From contig NZ_AUIM01000004.1 of NCBI RefSeq assembly GCF_000423705.1, positions 972,587 to 1,036,586 on the forward strand: a stretch of 64,000 nt of DNA. Direction: 5' to 3'. Both the position numbers and the translations under genes were made by a program. The notes beneath the pieces were generated by a model that was given only the letters and a program-made list of their open reading frames with translations, searched no databases and was not told the DNA's origin. This document shows, in pieces, positions 58,259-64,000 of the stretch (positions are counted from its first letter, which is position 1; each line of letters starts with the position of its first letter). This stretch comes from Stappia stellulata DSM 5886. Lineage in GTDB: Bacteria > Pseudomonadota > Alphaproteobacteria > Rhizobiales > Stappiaceae.

Positions 58259-58588
58259 GACCCCTCCGAGGTCATGCTGAATTACCTTTACGTTTAAGTC
58301 AATAAGTAAAATTTATACCATTTCTTACAATAAGATAACTGCTATAATTGTCGATAAGATATCGAGTTTTACCCATCAGCGATGCACCCTTTGCGGCAGC
58401 GGCGCACCCGGCGTCTTCCCCGCCCTTGCGCGGTGGGGCGCCTGAAAGACTCCGGGTTTTTCTTGGCCTCGACCGCCCGACCCGGCAAACTGGGCCGAGG
58501 CATCCGGCAGGCCGTTCATGCCCAAACCGCCGACCGGAGCCGGTTTCAGCGGCGGGACGCATTTTCCGCCCCGACAGGAGGTCCGCAT
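58259..58588. other. Divergent control region between liuR and a secreted-protein gene
   Basis: 330 bases without a gene. The liuR-side part is AT-rich and carries the LiuR-like operator (58278-58302). The secreted-protein side is GC-rich. Confidence 0.6.
58278..58302 (-). promoter_or_regulatory. LiuR-like operator and promoter of the liuR operon
   Basis: On the minus strand the site reads TTGACT-TAA-ACGTAAA-G-GT-A-ATTCA. Compared with the mccBA site (49293-49317) only five positions of the 25 differ, in the N runs. TTGACT as -35 and CAGCAT as -10 would give a transcript starting a few bases before the liuR ATG. Autoregulation is expected. Confidence 0.7.
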
Positions 58589-58954
58589 ATGTCGACGATC
58601 CAATCCACCGCACCCGGGATGCGGAAGCCATCGCACGCACGCGCCGGCCGGATTGCCGGATACGCCGGGATGCTCGTCCTCGCCCTCGCCGCCCTTGTCC
58701 CGACCGTTGCCGAAGCGGCCCGACCCGACCTTCGCCGAATGAGCTGCGCACAGGCGCAGGCGATGGTCGCCCAGCGCGGCGCGGTGGTGATGACCACCGG
58801 CCAATACACCTATCAGCGCTTCGTCGCCGGCCCGCGCTGGTGCGACCGCTGGGAGGTCGTGCGGCCCGAGGTCGCCCGCACCCGCGACACGCAAAGCTGC
58901 GTGGTCGGCTACATCTGCGAGGTGCCGCTGTTTCGCCCCTTCGAGTGGGACTGA
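58589..58954 (+). CDS. Small secreted cysteine-containing protein
   Basis: The 121-aa protein has an N-terminal signal with a hydrophobic core (GYAGMLVLALAALVPTVAEAA, about 24-44). The mature part ARPDLRRMSCAQAQAMVAQRG, YTYQRFVAGPRWCDRWEVV and TQSCVVGYICEVPLFRP has four cysteines likely to form two disulfides. Similar proteins exist in Hyphomicrobiales without a function. A clear GGAGG ribosome site sets the start. Confidence 0.8.
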   Translation: MSTIQSTAPGMRKPSHARAGRIAGYAGMLVLALAALVPTVAEAARPDLRRMSCAQAQAMVAQRGAVVMTTGQYTYQRFVAGPRWCDRWEVVRPEVARTRDTQSCVVGYICEVPLFRPFEWD

Positions 58955-59185
58955 CGAAGGCAAAACAGGGCGCTCGATTGCGCGCTCACCCAATGCACAC
59001 GTTTGACGGAATTCTTCCAGCGGCTAAGGTGAAGAACGCGCTACGGCAACCGCCGGCAGTGCCGAAATGCTGAAAAACTGTCCAGTGTCTGGCGCTTTTT
59101 CGGACTTGAGACGCGCCACGCCAGCTTGCGAAATTGTCAAAGGTTGGCAGCCGGAAAACCGGACACGGTCGCGCAGAGGGGGAGA

Positions 59186-60610
59186 ATGACGGATACAGAG
59201 CCATTCAACGAAATGCTTGGGTCCGATGGAGAGCCCCGCGCGCCCTACAAGGCGCTGGCGGACTGGTTTTCCGGCATGACCCCTGCGGAAATGCGCAGGA
59301 AATCGCGCGAGGCCGAAACGATTTTCCGGCGTCTGGGCATCACATTCGCCGTTTATGGCACGTCGGAAGCGACCGAACGCCTGATCCCCTTCGACATCGT
59401 GCCGCGCGTCCTCGCGGCGGCCGAATGGCGGCGCATTTCCGCCGGGATAGACCAGCGGGTGCGGGCACTGAACGCGTTCCTGCACGACATCTACCACCGC
59501 CAGGAAATCATCCGCGCCGGCCGCATTCCCGCCGATCTGGTGGTCCAGAACGAGGCCTTCCTCCCGGAGATGATCGGCTTCACCCCGCCGCGCAAGGTCT
59601 ATGCGCATATCATCGGCACGGATCTCGTGCGCGTCGGCGAGGATGAGTTCTACGTTCTTGAGGACAACACCCGCACGCCCTCCGGGGTCTCCTACATGCT
59701 GGAAAACCGCGAAACCATGATGCGCATGTTTCCGGAACTGTTTCAGCAGAACCGGGTCGCGCCGATCGAGCACTATCCCGACCTGTTGCGCGAAACGCTG
59801 GAAAGCGTCGCACCGGAAACCTGCGACGCGCAGGACCCCACGGTCTGTATCCTCACGCCGGGGATCTACAATTCCGCCTATTTCGAGCATGCCTTCCTCG
59901 CCGACAGCATGGGCGTCGAATTGTGCGAGGCCCGCGACCTTTTCGTCGAGGACGGCAAGGTCTTCATGCGCACCACCCGTGCGCCGGAGCGGGTGCATGT
60001 GATTTACCGGCGCATCGACGACGCCTTCCTCGACCCCCTCACCTTCCGGCCCGACAGCATGCTTGGCGTGCCGGGGCTGTTCGACGCCTATCGCGCGGGA
60101 AACGTCACGATCTGCAATGCGCCGGGCACCGGCATCGCCGACGACAAGGCGGTCTATGCCTATCTGCCGGAGATCATCGAATTCTACACCGGGCAAAAGC
60201 CGATCCTGCAGAACGTCCCCACCTGGAACTGCGCGCGGGACGACGATCTGGCCTATGTGCTCGACCATCTGTCGGACATCGTGGTCAAGGAAGTGCACGG
60301 ATCGGGCGGCTACGGCATGCTGATCGGTCCGACCGCCTCCAAACGCGAGCTGGCGGAATTCAAGCGGCGGCTCAAGGCCAATCCGTCGAACTACATCGCC
60401 CAGCCGACCCTGTCGCTCTCCGCGTGTCCCACCCATGTCGCCTCGGGCCTCGCCCCGCGGCATGTCGACCTCAGGCCCTATGTTCTGGTCGGGGACAAGG
60501 TGCGCATCACGCCTGGCGGGCTGACCCGCGTTGCCTTGAAGAAGGGCTCGCTGGTGGTCAATTCCAGCCAGGGTGGCGGCACCAAGGACACCTGGGTACT
60601 GGAGGACTGA
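59186..60610 (+). CDS. Circularly permuted ATP-grasp protein, Anbu-linked
   Basis: This 474-aa protein belongs to the circularly permuted ATP-grasp type 2 family, which has the parts of an ATP-dependent amide ligase in a swapped order. LGITFAVYGTSEATERLIPFDIVPRV and DNTRTPSGVSYMLENRE mark the first half; GTGIADDKAVYAYLPEII and IVVKEVHGSGGYGMLIGP mark the ATP-binding half. SSQGGGTKDTWVLED ends it. The first gene of ATP-grasp/alpha-E/transglutaminase/Anbu, it is predicted to join a peptide or amino acid to an unknown acceptor. The start has GGGGAGA upstream. Confidence 0.92.
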   Translation: MTDTEPFNEMLGSDGEPRAPYKALADWFSGMTPAEMRRKSREAETIFRRLGITFAVYGTSEATERLIPFDIVPRVLAAAEWRRISAGIDQRVRALNAFLHDIYHRQEIIRAGRIPADLVVQNEAFLPEMIGFTPPRKVYAHIIGTDLVRVGEDEFYVLEDNTRTPSGVSYMLENRETMMRMFPELFQQNRVAPIEHYPDLLRETLESVAPETCDAQDPTVCILTPGIYNSAYFEHAFLADSMGVELCEARDLFVEDGKVFMRTTRAPERVHVIYRRIDDAFLDPLTFRPDSMLGVPGLFDAYRAGNVTICNAPGTGIADDKAVYAYLPEIIEFYTGQKPILQNVPTWNCARDDDLAYVLDHLSDIVVKEVHGSGGYGMLIGPTASKRELAEFKRRLKANPSNYIAQPTLSLSACPTHVASGLAPRHVDLRPYVLVGDKVRITPGGLTRVALKKGSLVVNSSQGGGTKDTWVLED

Positions 60611-60616
60611 CAAGAC

Positions 60617-61564
60617 ATGCTCGGCCGCACCGCCGCTTCGCTCTACTGGACCTCGCGCTACAACGAGCGCGCGGAGAACATGGCCCGCCTGCTGGAAGTC
60701 GGCTATCGCATCGCGATGACCCCGCGCCTGGGGCAGGATCATTCCGACGACTGGCGCTCCACGCTGGTGAGCGCGGGATGCGACGGAGCGTTCTTCGCCA
60801 AATACGACGACCCGAGCAAGCGGGCCGTCGTCCAGCACATGCTGTTCGACCGGGACAATCCCTCCTCGGTACGTTCTTGCATCGAGGCCGCACGCAACAA
60901 CGCCCGTTCCGTCAGGACCGCCATCACCGGAGAAATGTGGGAAAGCCTGAACACCACCTATCTGGAGTTCCTGGACATTCGTCCGCAGCACATGACCGAC
61001 AACAAGCTGCCGGACTTCCTGGCCTGGATCAAACAGCGCTCCATGCTGTTTCGTGGCGCAATGCTCGGAACCCTGATGCGCGACGCGGGCTACCATTTCA
61101 GCCAGTTCGGCGCCTTCATCGAGCGCACGGACAACACCGCCCGGATCCTCGACGTGAAGTACTGGATCCTGCTGCCGGACAACGAAGTGATCGGCGGCGA
61201 CCTGGACCGCTACCAGTGGACCACGATCCTGCGGTCGGTTTCGGCGCACAGGAGCTATCGCCACGCCTATCGCGATGCGCAGGTCCGTCCCTTCAACGTG
61301 GCGGAATTCCTGATCCTGCGAAAGGAAATGCCACGGTCGATCGCATACTGCTATGATTGGATCGCGGAAAGCGCCGCCGCGCTTGCGGTGCGTTATCACG
61401 ACAGTCCGGTCAGCTGCGACATGGCGCAAGGCACGTTGTCGCTTCTGGAAGACACCTCGATGGACCGGATCTTCCAGGGCGGCCTGCACGAGTTCCTGAC
61501 CGACCTCATCGGCCGCAACAACGCGCTTGGCGCCCAGCTCGCCGCGGACTACCACTTCTCGTGA
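60617..61564 (+). CDS. Alpha-E domain-containing protein
   Basis: The 315-aa all-helical protein has the alpha-E (DUF403) signature: MLGRTAASLYWTSRYNERAENMARLLEVG at its N-terminus, then SMLFRGAMLGTLMRDAGYHFSQFGAFIERTDNTARILDVKYWIL (cut at FIERTDNTARILDVKYW, about 168) and DLTRYQW-like GDLDRYQWTTILRSVSA. Alpha-E proteins always accompany CP ATP-grasp enzymes; they are proposed to work with the ligase. It begins six bases after the ATP-grasp stop. Confidence 0.92.
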   Translation: MLGRTAASLYWTSRYNERAENMARLLEVGYRIAMTPRLGQDHSDDWRSTLVSAGCDGAFFAKYDDPSKRAVVQHMLFDRDNPSSVRSCIEAARNNARSVRTAITGEMWESLNTTYLEFLDIRPQHMTDNKLPDFLAWIKQRSMLFRGAMLGTLMRDAGYHFSQFGAFIERTDNTARILDVKYWILLPDNEVIGGDLDRYQWTTILRSVSAHRSYRHAYRDAQVRPFNVAEFLILRKEMPRSIAYCYDWIAESAAALAVRYHDSPVSCDMAQGTLSLLEDTSMDRIFQGGLHEFLTDLIGRNNALGAQLAADYHFS

Positions 61565-61613
61565 CACGGACCGGACGCAGGTCCGACACGCGACCAACGG
61601 AGGCCGACGGCCC

Positions 61614-62432
61614 ATGCGCCTCGTCGTGAAACACGTCACCCGCTATGCCTACGAGCAGCCGATCGCTCACATGATCCAGCAATTGCGGCTCGTTCCCCAT
61701 ACCCACAAGGGCCAGAAGATCCTGTCCTGGTCGGTAAGCGTTCCGGGCCTGGAACGCGGAGCGCACTACACAGACGCATTCGGGAACCGCGTCGATCTCG
61801 TCAGCCATCGCGGCCCCGTGACCGAACTCACAGTCGCCGTCGAGGGGATGGTTGAGACGAGTGACACGGCCGGGATCGTCGGGGCGTTTCCCTATGCCGC
61901 ACCGGATGGCGTGTTCCGACGCTTCACGCCCCTCACCCAGACGAATGCATCGATCCGGCGTCTCGGCGCCATCGCCGAGAACACCGACGACATTGCCGGA
62001 TTTCACGAGCTGATGCATGCCATTCGCGACAAGGTCGGCTATCAAACGGGCGTCACCGAAGTCCATACGACCGCAGCCGAGGCACTCTCGTCCGGCCTCG
62101 GGGTCTGCCAGGATCATGCACATATTTTCATCAGTGCGGCACGCAGCATCGGCGTTCCCGCCCGCTATGTCTCAGGCTACATGCTGATGGGGGACGAGCA
62201 GGATTCCGAGGCCCATCACGCCTGGGCCGAGGTCAAGCTTCCCTCGCTCGGCTGGGTCGGGTTCGACGTTTCCAACGGCATGTGCCCGACGGAGCGCTAC
62301 ATCCGCCTGACCTGCGGTCTGGATTCGCGTTCCGCCGCGCCCATTCGCGGCGTTCGACGGGGAAATGGCGACGAGGCCATGTCGGTCGAGGTGGCGGTCC
62401 TGCAGGAATCGGCGCAATCTCAGCAACAATGA
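61614..62432 (+). CDS. Transglutaminase-like cysteine peptidase, Anbu-linked
   Basis: The 272-aa protein has a bacterial transglutaminase N-terminal domain (MRLVVKHVTRYAYEQPIAHM, then QQLRLVPHTHKGQKILSWSV) and a catalytic domain. The triad is Cys in SSGLGVCQDHAHIFI (about 165), His in DSEAHHAWAEVKL (about 204) and Asp in VGFDVSNGM (about 220). In this family the fold usually works as a peptidase or amidase. It is third in the ATP-grasp/alpha-E/Anbu cluster and would oppose the ligase. Confidence 0.94.
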   Translation: MRLVVKHVTRYAYEQPIAHMIQQLRLVPHTHKGQKILSWSVSVPGLERGAHYTDAFGNRVDLVSHRGPVTELTVAVEGMVETSDTAGIVGAFPYAAPDGVFRRFTPLTQTNASIRRLGAIAENTDDIAGFHELMHAIRDKVGYQTGVTEVHTTAAEALSSGLGVCQDHAHIFISAARSIGVPARYVSGYMLMGDEQDSEAHHAWAEVKLPSLGWVGFDVSNGMCPTERYIRLTCGLDSRSAAPIRGVRRGNGDEAMSVEVAVLQESAQSQQQ

Positions 62433-62542
62433 AACCGTTGCTCCGGTCCCCGGAACGCGGTCATATCCGTCACAACGTCCCATAAGGGAATCAGTTCGCA
62501 CTGCGGCAACCCGTTGCCACGGTGCGTGTCAAACGGTGCAAC

Positions 62543-63274
62543 ATGACGTACTGCGTGGGCCTCAAACTCGACCGCGGCCTTGTGATGGCCGCCGATACCC
62601 GCACGAATGCCGGGCTCGACAATGTCGCAACCTTCAAAAAGCTGAATGTCTGGGAAAAGCCCGGCGAGCGGGTGATCAGCCTGATGTCCGCCGGCAATCT
62701 CGCCATCACCCAGTCCGTGGTGAGCCTCTTGTCGGAGCGGCTGGAAAGCGACGACCCCACCCGCCCGACGCTGTTCTCGGTCGAGACGATGTTCCAGGCC
62801 GCGCGCCTCGTCGGCAGCGTCATGCGCGATGTGCGCGCCATCGACGGCGATGCGCTTGCCGCCAATTCCGAAAGCTTCAGCGTGACCTTCCTGCTGGGCG
62901 GCCAGATCAAGGGCGAGACCCCGCGGCTGTTCCAGATCTACTCCGCCGGCAATTTCATCGAGGCCTCGCACGACACGCCCTTCCTGCAGATCGGCGAGCA
63001 CAAATACGGCAAGCCGATCCTCGACCGGGTGACCCAGGCCGACATGCGCCTTGGCCAGGCGGCGAAACTGGTGCTCCTGTCGTTCAACTCGACGCTGCGG
63101 TCGAACCTGTCCGTCGGCATGCCGATCGACATGCTGCTCTACAACACCGACAGCTTCTCGGCCCATCGCCAGACGCGGATCGAGGAAACCGACCGATATT
63201 TCGCGGATATGTCGCGCATGTGGTCCGAAAAGCTCCGCGACGCAGTCGCCGAGATCCCCGACTTCGAGATCTGA
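62543..63274 (+). CDS. Anbu proteasome-like peptidase
   Basis: The 243-aa protein is an ancestral-beta-subunit (Anbu) homologue of proteasome beta subunits. It starts MTYCVGLKLDRGLVMAADTRTN, so Thr2 is exposed by removal of Met and can be the N-terminal nucleophile, with Asp/Lys partners in the AADTR and FKKL segments. TAGN-like SAGNLAITQSVVSLL and the C-terminal FNSTLRSNLSVGMPIDML fit Anbu. Anbu forms a spiral or ring of subunits. No signal; cytosolic. It comes 110 bp after the transglutaminase gene, possibly with its own promoter. Confidence 0.93.
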   Translation: MTYCVGLKLDRGLVMAADTRTNAGLDNVATFKKLNVWEKPGERVISLMSAGNLAITQSVVSLLSERLESDDPTRPTLFSVETMFQAARLVGSVMRDVRAIDGDALAANSESFSVTFLLGGQIKGETPRLFQIYSAGNFIEASHDTPFLQIGEHKYGKPILDRVTQADMRLGQAAKLVLLSFNSTLRSNLSVGMPIDMLLYNTDSFSAHRQTRIEETDRYFADMSRMWSEKLRDAVAEIPDFEI

Positions 63275-63316: not shown

Positions 63317-64000
63317 CTACGAGGGCGGCGCCAATTGCGCGGCCGCCGCCGCAGCGAGTGCCTCCGCAAGCTCCTGCTTGTTGGCTTCGCCGACATGCGC
63401 ATCACTCGCCTTGTCGCCGAAAAACGGTTCCGTAAGCGCGGAAGGAATGTCGAGCGCCGACACGCTGCCATAGCCGCGATCGCCCTTGTCGCGTTCCTTC
63501 AGCCCGCGGTCGTAGAGCCCGAGCGCACCCAGCATCGCGTCCTGCAGCCGTTGTGCCCAGGCCTTGGAACCGGCATTCTTGTCCTCGTCATAAAGCGTTT
63601 CCGTGCCGTGTGCTGCGCCGTTGTAGGCGTTGAAATGCAACTCCATCACACAGCTCGCGCCCCATTTGGCGACCTGCTTGTAAGCGCCGCTGATGCCGAT
63701 CCCGTCACGAAAGAAGATCTTGCTCTGCACGCCACGGGACATGCAGGCCTGATGCACCATTGCGGCAAGATCCTTGTTCCAGGGATACTCGTTCTTGTGG
63801 ATCGGCGCCCCGCCCGAGGCGCCGGGACTGTTCTTGGTGTGCCCGACGACAATGGCGACCGCCGGACCCGTGGCCCGTGCCACGATCTCCTTTTCCACCT
63901 CGACCCCCGCCCGCTTGCCAAGCAGGATCTCTTCCAGATCGTTCAGCCGCTCCCGCTCGGCGCGGATGGCCTGGTAGTCCTCATAGGAAATGTCTTCACC
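63317..64000 (-). CDS. N-acetylmuramoyl-L-alanine amidase family protein (C-terminal part)
   Basis: The gene continues past the right edge; 227 residues are visible and the frame stays open at 64000. An amidase_3-like zinc domain is seen: VVGHTKNSPGASG (first His), NEYPWNKDLA (Glu), MELHFNAYN (second His) and ALTEPFFGDKASD (catalytic Glu). The upstream part (GEDISYEDYQAIRAERERL) is helical and charged. Such enzymes cut the lactyl-peptide bond in peptidoglycan. It converges with Anbu, so co-regulation is not implied. Confidence 0.85.
   Translation of the reverse strand, partial: GEDISYEDYQAIRAERERLNDLEEILLGKRAGVEVEKEIVARATGPAVAIVVGHTKNSPGASGGAPIHKNEYPWNKDLAAMVHQACMSRGVQSKIFFRDGIGISGAYKQVAKWGASCVMELHFNAYNGAAHGTETLYDEDKNAGSKAWAQRLQDAMLGALGLYDRGLKERDKGDRGYGSVSALDIPSALTEPFFGDKASDAHVGEANKQELAEALAAAAAAQLAPPS

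Follow-up and report, generated by a model that had tools for sequence, protein, structure and literature searches.

Glutathionylspermidine synthetase/amidase, an enzyme whose substrate is known, combines a ligase resembling glutathione synthetase with a papain-like cysteine amidase in one protein and, to our knowledge, is found without Alpha-E or Anbu. In the operon examined here the parts are separate proteins, whereas there they are fused. The RimK/RimB and RloABC systems share with the Anbu operon the pairing of an ATP-grasp ligase and a peptidase, but their peptidases are aspartic, and the available text of PMC12239564 names neither Alpha-E nor Anbu for them. The Rlo operon, which carries a membrane-bound inactive transglutaminase domain, was considered as the same system and rejected as analogous only (PMC12239564). 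Caulobacter HvyA is a transglutaminase homologue that shows no sign of belonging to the Anbu operon in the available text of PMC10274813.

For the published Anbu operon itself, Anbu homologues have been reported to assemble as a dodecameric open ring (PMC5666114). The Yersinia ATP-grasp protein releases phosphate from ATP; in the available text of that study neither glutamine nor glutamate stimulated the reaction, which could have been plain ATP hydrolysis (PMC6376114).

Gene content and organization of the locus

The window, meaning the whole 64,000-nucleotide stretch of Stappia stellulata DSM 5886 that was analysed, contains an Anbu operon of four genes at 59186-63274 on the + strand, where an earlier sequence-only reading had placed it. 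The first gene (59186..60610, +) encodes a circularly permuted ATP-grasp ligase of 474 aa, with profile matches to PF14403 (565 bits) and PF04174 (515 bits) and a full-length match to 3n6x (E 1e-200), its closest solved structure. This structure is a putative glutathionylspermidine synthase from Methylobacillus flagellatus, the name being the depositors' label, and we know of no activity for it. Alpha-E follows at 60617..61564 (+; 315 aa, all-helical; PF04168, 307 bits), and a transglutaminase-fold (papain-like) cysteine protein of 272 aa is encoded at 61614..62432 (+; ATG at 61614), matching PF08379, PF01841 and 3isr (E 3e-10). The last gene (62543..63274, +; ATG at 62543) encodes Anbu, a proteasome-fold N-terminal-nucleophile protein of 243 aa that matches PF00227 (33 bits) and has the Anbu structures 5nyj (E 9e-97) and 5nyf (E 3e-96) as its closest solved structures.

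These profile and structure matches confirmed the identities that the sequence-only reading had assigned to all four genes. The order ATP-grasp, Alpha-E, transglutaminase and Anbu on one strand is that of the published Anbu operon, and families, gene content and catalytic residues are likewise all alike. The set is an intact copy of that operon, which is known from many genomes, so the reading was right to call it a known recurrent cluster. A chance origin of the four-gene observation is excluded.

Gene linkage across genomes

The ATP-grasp gene adjoined Alpha-E in all 100 of the fetched alphaproteobacterial Alpha-E loci. A transglutaminase gene lay within 1.5 kb in 62 of these and was missing nearby in 38, and Anbu lay within 5 kb in 50, with none nearby in the other 50. 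ATP-grasp and Alpha-E are the fixed core of the operon, and the presence of the transglutaminase and of Anbu beside them varies. Co-inheritance of all four as one set, for which the sequence-only reading had proposed a neighbourhood survey, was contradicted by these counts, the four genes being separable. The same reading had cast Alpha-E as an accompanying protein, which described its place beside ATP-grasp correctly and understated it, since Alpha-E belongs to the core. Alpha-E was present in 78 of 81 genomes with Anbu compared with 107 of all 289 genomes (Fisher p 8e-42), and the intergenic gaps in 96 four-gene loci had medians of 11, 14 and 52 bp.

As candidates for further constantly linked genes, those remaining neighbour clusters that were examined, a part of all, were rejected as antisense shadows or members of broad families (ABC ATPase, response regulator, short-chain dehydrogenase). 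Among genomes with a diverged Anbu, 13 of 15 carried ATP-grasp, Alpha-E and then a gene resembling aminoacyl-tRNA-protein transferases. However, 10 of these loci also had an upstream frame in common, and where the gene occurred a 14th time it lay 1.1 kb away on the opposite strand; for both reasons the transferase-like gene beside Alpha-E was kept as a lead.

Conservation of catalytic residues

Residues D146, E159, D160 and N161 of the ATP-grasp protein were each present in 179 of 180 relatives, the remaining row being gapped, and K321, K368, R448 and N459 were present in all 180. Together with the full-length profile match, these conserved residues, which we take to form the metal and ATP sites, place the protein in the circularly permuted ATP-grasp family (PF14403/PF04174). 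In the transglutaminase-fold protein, C165 was kept in 112, H202 in 116 and D218 in 115 of 116 relatives. Anbu T2, D18 and K33 (T1, D17 and K32 without Met) were kept in 113/113 relatives; these correspond to the Thr nucleophile, Asp17 and Lys32(33) named for Anbu in PMC6376114.

The positions taken as catalytic are thus present in the window and conserved across relatives, in agreement with the earlier claim that the catalytic residues are intact. Estimates of dN/dS for the four genes against five relatives ranged from 0.04 to 0.23, showing strong purifying selection, and Anbu was present in 14/14 genus genomes searched, including this one. The prediction that the system is probably active is consistent with these selection data, but a published Anbu showed neither peptidase nor amidase activity in vitro in the available text of PMC6376114.

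Structural comparison

The fold of the ligase was compared using the ATP-grasp half of a modelled natural-fusion paralogue rather than the window protein itself. This paralogue has 33% identity to 3n6x and has itself lost catalytic residues; 3n6x is the link between its fold and the window ligase. The paralogue half matched 3n6x (E 2e-41), glutathione synthetases (best 5e-13), the glutathionylspermidine synthetase/amidase 2io7 (6e-10) and trypanothione synthetase (4e-6). Judged on this model, the folds closest to the one predicted for the ligase are those of the glutathione, glutathionylspermidine and trypanothione synthetases. The likeness of 2io7 to the window ligase is by fold only, through the paralogue: no sequence match to glutathionylspermidine synthetase/amidase was obtained, and a PDB profile search up to E 10 found only 3n6x.

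The Alpha-E fold was predicted confidently by AlphaFold2 (pLDDT 93.5, pTM 0.91), and the protein is an internal duplication whose two halves align with each other (hhalign E 1.4e-15). Kinship of Alpha-E to a known fold was rejected, as the sequence had no PDB match (best in the profile search E 0.75) and a Foldseek comparison of the model with the PDB and a viral library gave nothing at E <= 0.001. The ATP-grasp/Alpha-E interface in the natural-fusion model was discarded because confidence was low (mean pLDDT 68.7), with the Alpha-E half mostly below 60.

Upstream region and nitrogen response

The promoter probably lies in the region 58955..59185 (+), where TTTGAC near 59002 and CTGGCGCTTTTTCGGACTTGAGAC near 59090 were conserved in the closest relatives, among the listed part of an alignment with 20 relatives. 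A sigma-70 consensus scan of 58955..59185 found nothing.

Unlike some other copies of the operon, this one has no sigma-54 site upstream. When at least 10 of 11 positions had to agree, a sigma-54 motif stood upstream of 23 of the 201 operon loci scanned and of 7 of 796 other genes (p 2e-11), but in none of 20 genus and family relatives (0/21 with the window). The best match in the window reached 6/11, and sigma-54 control of this operon was rejected. NtrC dyads were not enriched over random pieces in 121 upstream regions.

Elsewhere, three studies report that nitrogen limitation raises expression of operon genes in Pseudomonas putida (PMC8050072, PMC7801951, PMC3325844). In one of these, transglutaminase, Alpha-E and ATP-grasp rose 12.6-, 11.0- and 14.7-fold in the wild type, where the Anbu gene changed just 1.12-fold, and 14.2-, 16.0- and 19.6-fold in an rpoN mutant; sigma-54 control of the operon in P. 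putida was rejected on this basis (PMC7801951). In B. cenocepacia, a cluster that includes transglutaminase-like proteins is reported as NtrC- and sigma-54-dependent (PMC5491218), and across marine metagenomes the operon domains are reported to be correlated with urea metabolism (PMC3597751). The sigma-54 link to the operon is only partial, since the motif is missing from all 21 loci scanned in this family and induction in P. putida persists without sigma-54.

Proposed function

We tentatively favour, at a little short of an even chance, a reversible amide ligase/amidase module acting on a small peptide or amine. The ATP-grasp enzyme would convert a carboxylate, on a small peptide or an amino acid, into an acyl phosphate and then couple it to an amine. 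Alpha-E, as its constant partner, would probably bind substrate or complete the active site. The transglutaminase-fold protein and Anbu, each separable from the other, would be hydrolases (or transferases) that reverse the ligation or trim its product, an opposition suggested by gene neighbourhood only. The operon might then be in effect a split counterpart of glutathionylspermidine synthetase/amidase. The making and breaking of an amide bond, implied in the sequence-only reading, holds up as predicted chemistry. Because the operon rises under nitrogen limitation in some other bacteria, its product may help the cell to scavenge or store nitrogen. The analysis shows the gene content, the residue conservation, the selection, the fixed core, the ligase fold at the level of the family and, for other lineages, the enrichment of the sigma-54 motif. 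The reaction and the direction in which it runs, the small size of the substrate, the part played by Alpha-E, the action of the hydrolases on what the ligase makes and any control by nitrogen in Stappia stellulata are inferences.

The sequence-only reading had also raised a peptide tag. ATP-grasp and Alpha-E would put a peptide or amino acid on proteins, and the transglutaminase or Anbu would remove the tag or degrade the tagged protein, as proposed in literature summarised by PMC5666114 and PMC6376114. Anbu's membership of the proteasome family and the transferase-like gene of the diverged-Anbu genomes speak for tagging, but a published pull-down recovered no operon proteins in complex with one another in the available text of PMC6376114. 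Moreover, most of the intergenic gaps, measured between genes only, leave too little room for a tag gene, no unfoldase occurred among the neighbour clusters identified (a part of all), and the modelled ligase fold is nearest to small-peptide synthetases. For these last three reasons tagging is without specific support; it is less supported than the amide module, and we regard it as rather unlikely.

Alternatively, Anbu or the transglutaminase-fold protein could build or remodel a linkage instead of hydrolysing one, in the manner of connectase. The conserved T, D and K of Anbu, presumably the residues of proteasome-type hydrolases, argue against such a transpeptidase. The lack of hydrolase activity in a published Anbu (PMC6376114) and the precedent of connectase, a proteasome homologue that is a protein ligase (PMC8665760), argue for it, but the available text of the literature found reports no ligation test of Anbu. 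On balance this appears improbable. ATP-grasp and transglutaminase-like proteins are also components of ribosomal and non-ribosomal peptide pathways, and a pathway for such a natural product is a further candidate explanation. The short gaps leave little space for a precursor gene, and the presence of Anbu throughout the genus genomes searched and the strong purifying selection also count against this explanation, making it very improbable.

A possible but doubtful extension of the amide module is that ATP-grasp and Alpha-E form a self-standing two-component ligase, in which the duplicated helical Alpha-E would contribute the half of the active site that binds the amine or peptide. The editing enzymes attached to it would differ between lineages (transglutaminase, Anbu, both, or the aminoacyl-tRNA-protein transferase-like protein), and therefore the substrate long sought for Anbu would be what this ligase makes.

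Implications

Beyond the published operon, the analysis adds the fixed core, the occurrence of Alpha-E in nearly all Anbu genomes, the duplication and fold of Alpha-E, the predicted fold affinity of the ligase and the enrichment of the sigma-54 motif elsewhere. Anbu has a central place in discussions of how proteasomes arose, and the available text of the literature found names no substrate for it. A fixed core of ATP-grasp and Alpha-E, with separable Anbu and transglutaminase, makes the question of the Anbu substrate experimentally concrete.

Gene content and sequence conservation

The four genes lie consecutively on the forward strand at 59186–63274, in the row claimed by the sequence-only reading. 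The circularly permuted ATP-grasp ligase (474 aa) comes first and Alpha-E (315 aa) second, followed by the transglutaminase-fold protein (272 aa, ATG at 61614) and, after a gap of 110 bp, Anbu (243 aa, ATG at 62543). The nearest solved structures were 3n6x for the ATP-grasp (E 1e-200), 3isr for the transglutaminase-fold protein (E 3e-10) and 5nyj and 5nyf for Anbu (E 9e-97 and 3e-96); for Alpha-E, the PDB search matched no solved structure by sequence. Alpha-E had a single match in the 4.6 Mb genome of the strain. Just before the operon on the forward strand, 58382–58954 is open over 190 aa and matched no Pfam family, its DNA being alignable in several, not all, genomes of the genus, and an N-acetylmuramoyl-L-alanine amidase gene (Amidase_3; 63317–64000, reverse strand) faces the operon and runs off the window end.

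The catalytic residues, previously described as intact, were found to be kept in nearly all aligned relatives of Anbu, the transglutaminase and the ATP-grasp. Among the positions that we take to be catalytic, the transglutaminase Cys, His and Asp were kept in 112, 116 and 115 of 116 sequences, ATP-grasp D146, E159, D160 and N161 in 179 of 180 (the remaining row being gapped) and K321, K368, R448 and N459 in all 180. Anbu T2, D18 and K33, whose catalytic roles are described in excerpts of PMC6376114, were kept in 113/113. Relative to five relatives, dN/dS was 0.04–0.12 for the ATP-grasp, 0.055–0.17 for Alpha-E, 0.09–0.23 for the transglutaminase and 0.06–0.17 for Anbu. As judged from sequence, the operon is intact and under constraint.

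Distribution and co-inheritance

Anbu was present in 30 of 41 searched genomes close to that of the window (own genome counted), including 14/14 of the genus and 9/11 others of the family, and all 20 retrieved operons (13 same-genus and 7 same-family genomes) contained the four genes. Among 289 genomes of the class, Alpha-E was found in 107 and Anbu in 81, 78 of which also had Alpha-E (Fisher p 8e-42, which overstates independence since the genomes are related). Anbu was found without Alpha-E in G187 (100 % complete but in 270 contigs, where 1.9 kb separates Anbu from the start of its contig), in G295 (63 % complete) and in G299, where a diverged Anbu adjoins an ATP-grasp on opposite strands (L166:4965–7229) and Alpha-E was absent from both the class-wide search and the L166 stretch.

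To the survey of four-gene co-inheritance proposed earlier, the answer was divided: the ATP-grasp adjoined Alpha-E in 100/100 loci sampled around stand-alone-type Alpha-E genes, and the transglutaminase and Anbu were often missing. When a transglutaminase was accepted up to 1.5 kb away and Anbu up to 5 kb away, whichever the strand, all four genes were present in 41 loci; 21 lacked Anbu, 9 lacked the transglutaminase and 29 lacked both, some of these sets being incomplete because of contig ends. Anbu lay 9 kb off in one of the 21 (L051) and on the other strand in one of the 41 (L144). The sample left out the window's own site, two contig-edge matches (G065 and G105 C181), two other possible stand-alone sites (G225 and G326) and the long fused forms. 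In a second sample, the best 80 of 590 named loci by ATP-grasp, mostly from Alphaproteobacteria, Alpha-E was adjacent in 80/80; 56 had all four genes, 16 lacked Anbu, one lacked the transglutaminase and seven lacked both. The transglutaminase was searched for again in 24 genomes, nine with Anbu but no transglutaminase in the operon and fifteen with a diverged Anbu; all 24 encoded some transglutaminase-like protein, with best scores below 100 bits except in G207, where the match (42 % identity) belongs to a second Alpha-E locus. The ATP-grasp and Alpha-E are thus the fixed unit, being adjacent throughout both samples while the two peptidase-like proteins vary and are separable.

The diverged Anbu (31–36 % identity) lies outside the operon in fifteen genomes (L151–L165) and retains T, D and K in 15/15. 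In 13 of these 15 genomes, an aminoacyl-tRNA-protein transferase-like gene follows Alpha-E by 4–208 bp on the same strand (L093, L099, L100, L101, L102, L104, L106, L107, L111, L112, L122, L126 and L138; ATE_N/ATE_C by Pfam in four tested, the rest called by phmmer), which may be plain synteny.

Alpha-E duplication and ligase fold

The AlphaFold2 model of Alpha-E was all-helical (mean pLDDT 93.5, pTM 0.91). Searched against 350,542 PDB chains and against the viral library, it gave no Foldseek match at E ≤ 0.001 (best 0.59 and 0.33, respectively). The two halves of the protein aligned with each other (hhalign probability 98.6, E 1.4e-15, score 95), compared with scores of at most 19 for 30 column shuffles, 12.7 for the reversed profile and at most 54.7 for 40 shuffles of 12-column blocks, and each half carries an ER...N..AR helix. 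On this profile comparison the halves are homologous, a duplication not described in the titles and abstract openings of 15 of the 23 papers matched for the Alpha-E domain/DUF403. Invariant residues across 55 sequences include R24, R93, R100, W108, N112, E169, R176, W201 and R240, and may serve in substrate binding or complete the ligase site.

For the ligase, folds were compared using a model of an ATP-grasp/Alpha-E fusion paralogue (from L231), reliable in its ATP-grasp half only. This half matched 3n6x first, then eukaryotic-type glutathione synthetases, with further matches to glutathionylspermidine synthetase/amidase, trypanothione synthetase and YgiC. The paralogue model therefore suggests a ligase like the glutathionylspermidine family in fold and layout, but membership is not claimed because ATP-grasp sequence profiles did not reach the glutathione, glutathionylspermidine or trypanothione synthetases or YgiC in the PDB search. 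The paralogue ATP-grasp is itself probably inactive, since E159 and N161 are substituted in 13/13 copies (L097, L115, L117, L118, L128, L135, L196, L197, L228, L231, L239, L245 and L248; the L179 row, a fragment of an ordinary ATP-grasp, was not counted). K321 is also substituted in 11/11 readable copies. Fusion to Alpha-E is visible in nine copies, and the other four are truncated at the edge of their locus.

Regulation

A sigma-54 motif (at least 10 of 11 positions) was found upstream of the ATP-grasp in 15/121 loci and 8/80 named loci (23/201), compared with 7 of the 796 regions that lie upstream of the remaining supported genes of these loci (Fisher p 2e-11), with starts predicted from alignments and related loci not independent. 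Random pieces gave 0.3–0.4 %, and all 23 sites lay 19–106 bp from the predicted start. The best score upstream of the window operon was 6/11, none of its 20 genus and family relatives within the 121 reached 10/11, and NtrC dyads were not enriched in the 121 regions.

Excerpts of three studies report operon genes of Pseudomonas putida as raised under nitrogen limitation (PMC8050072, PMC7801951, PMC3325844), and part of another describes a Burkholderia cenocepacia cluster with transglutaminase-like proteins as NtrC/sigma-54 dependent (PMC5491218). Against such dependence, in excerpts of PMC7801951 the induction of PP_2686–PP_2688 was equal or higher in an rpoN mutant than in the wild type, where PP_2685 (Anbu) changed only 1.12-fold; excerpts of PMC8050072 and PMC3325844 have PP_2685 raised. 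Nitrogen control is thus a partial, lineage-dependent link.

Predicted function

The best reading, held at slightly under even confidence, is that the operon would encode a reversible amide ligase/amidase module acting on a small substrate. Protein tagging by the operon appears less likely given the fold of the ligase, the identified neighbours, which include no unfoldase, and, as far as a tag gene between the four genes is concerned, the short gene gaps, which across 96 four-gene loci had medians of 11, 14 and 52 bp and were below 60 bp in 77, 89 and 54 loci. It is still less probable that Anbu acts as a transferase, a role consistent with the lack of hydrolysis in vitro by a published Anbu (excerpts of PMC6376114) and with the connectase precedent (excerpts of PMC8665760). 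A natural-product pathway fits the conservation poorly and is very improbable.

The locus is a further example of an already known operon type. Comparison adds that the ATP-grasp and Alpha-E form its fixed core, that Alpha-E is an internally duplicated protein of unmatched fold, that sigma-54 motifs are enriched upstream across the loci scanned, and that a paralogue of the ligase looks inactive.
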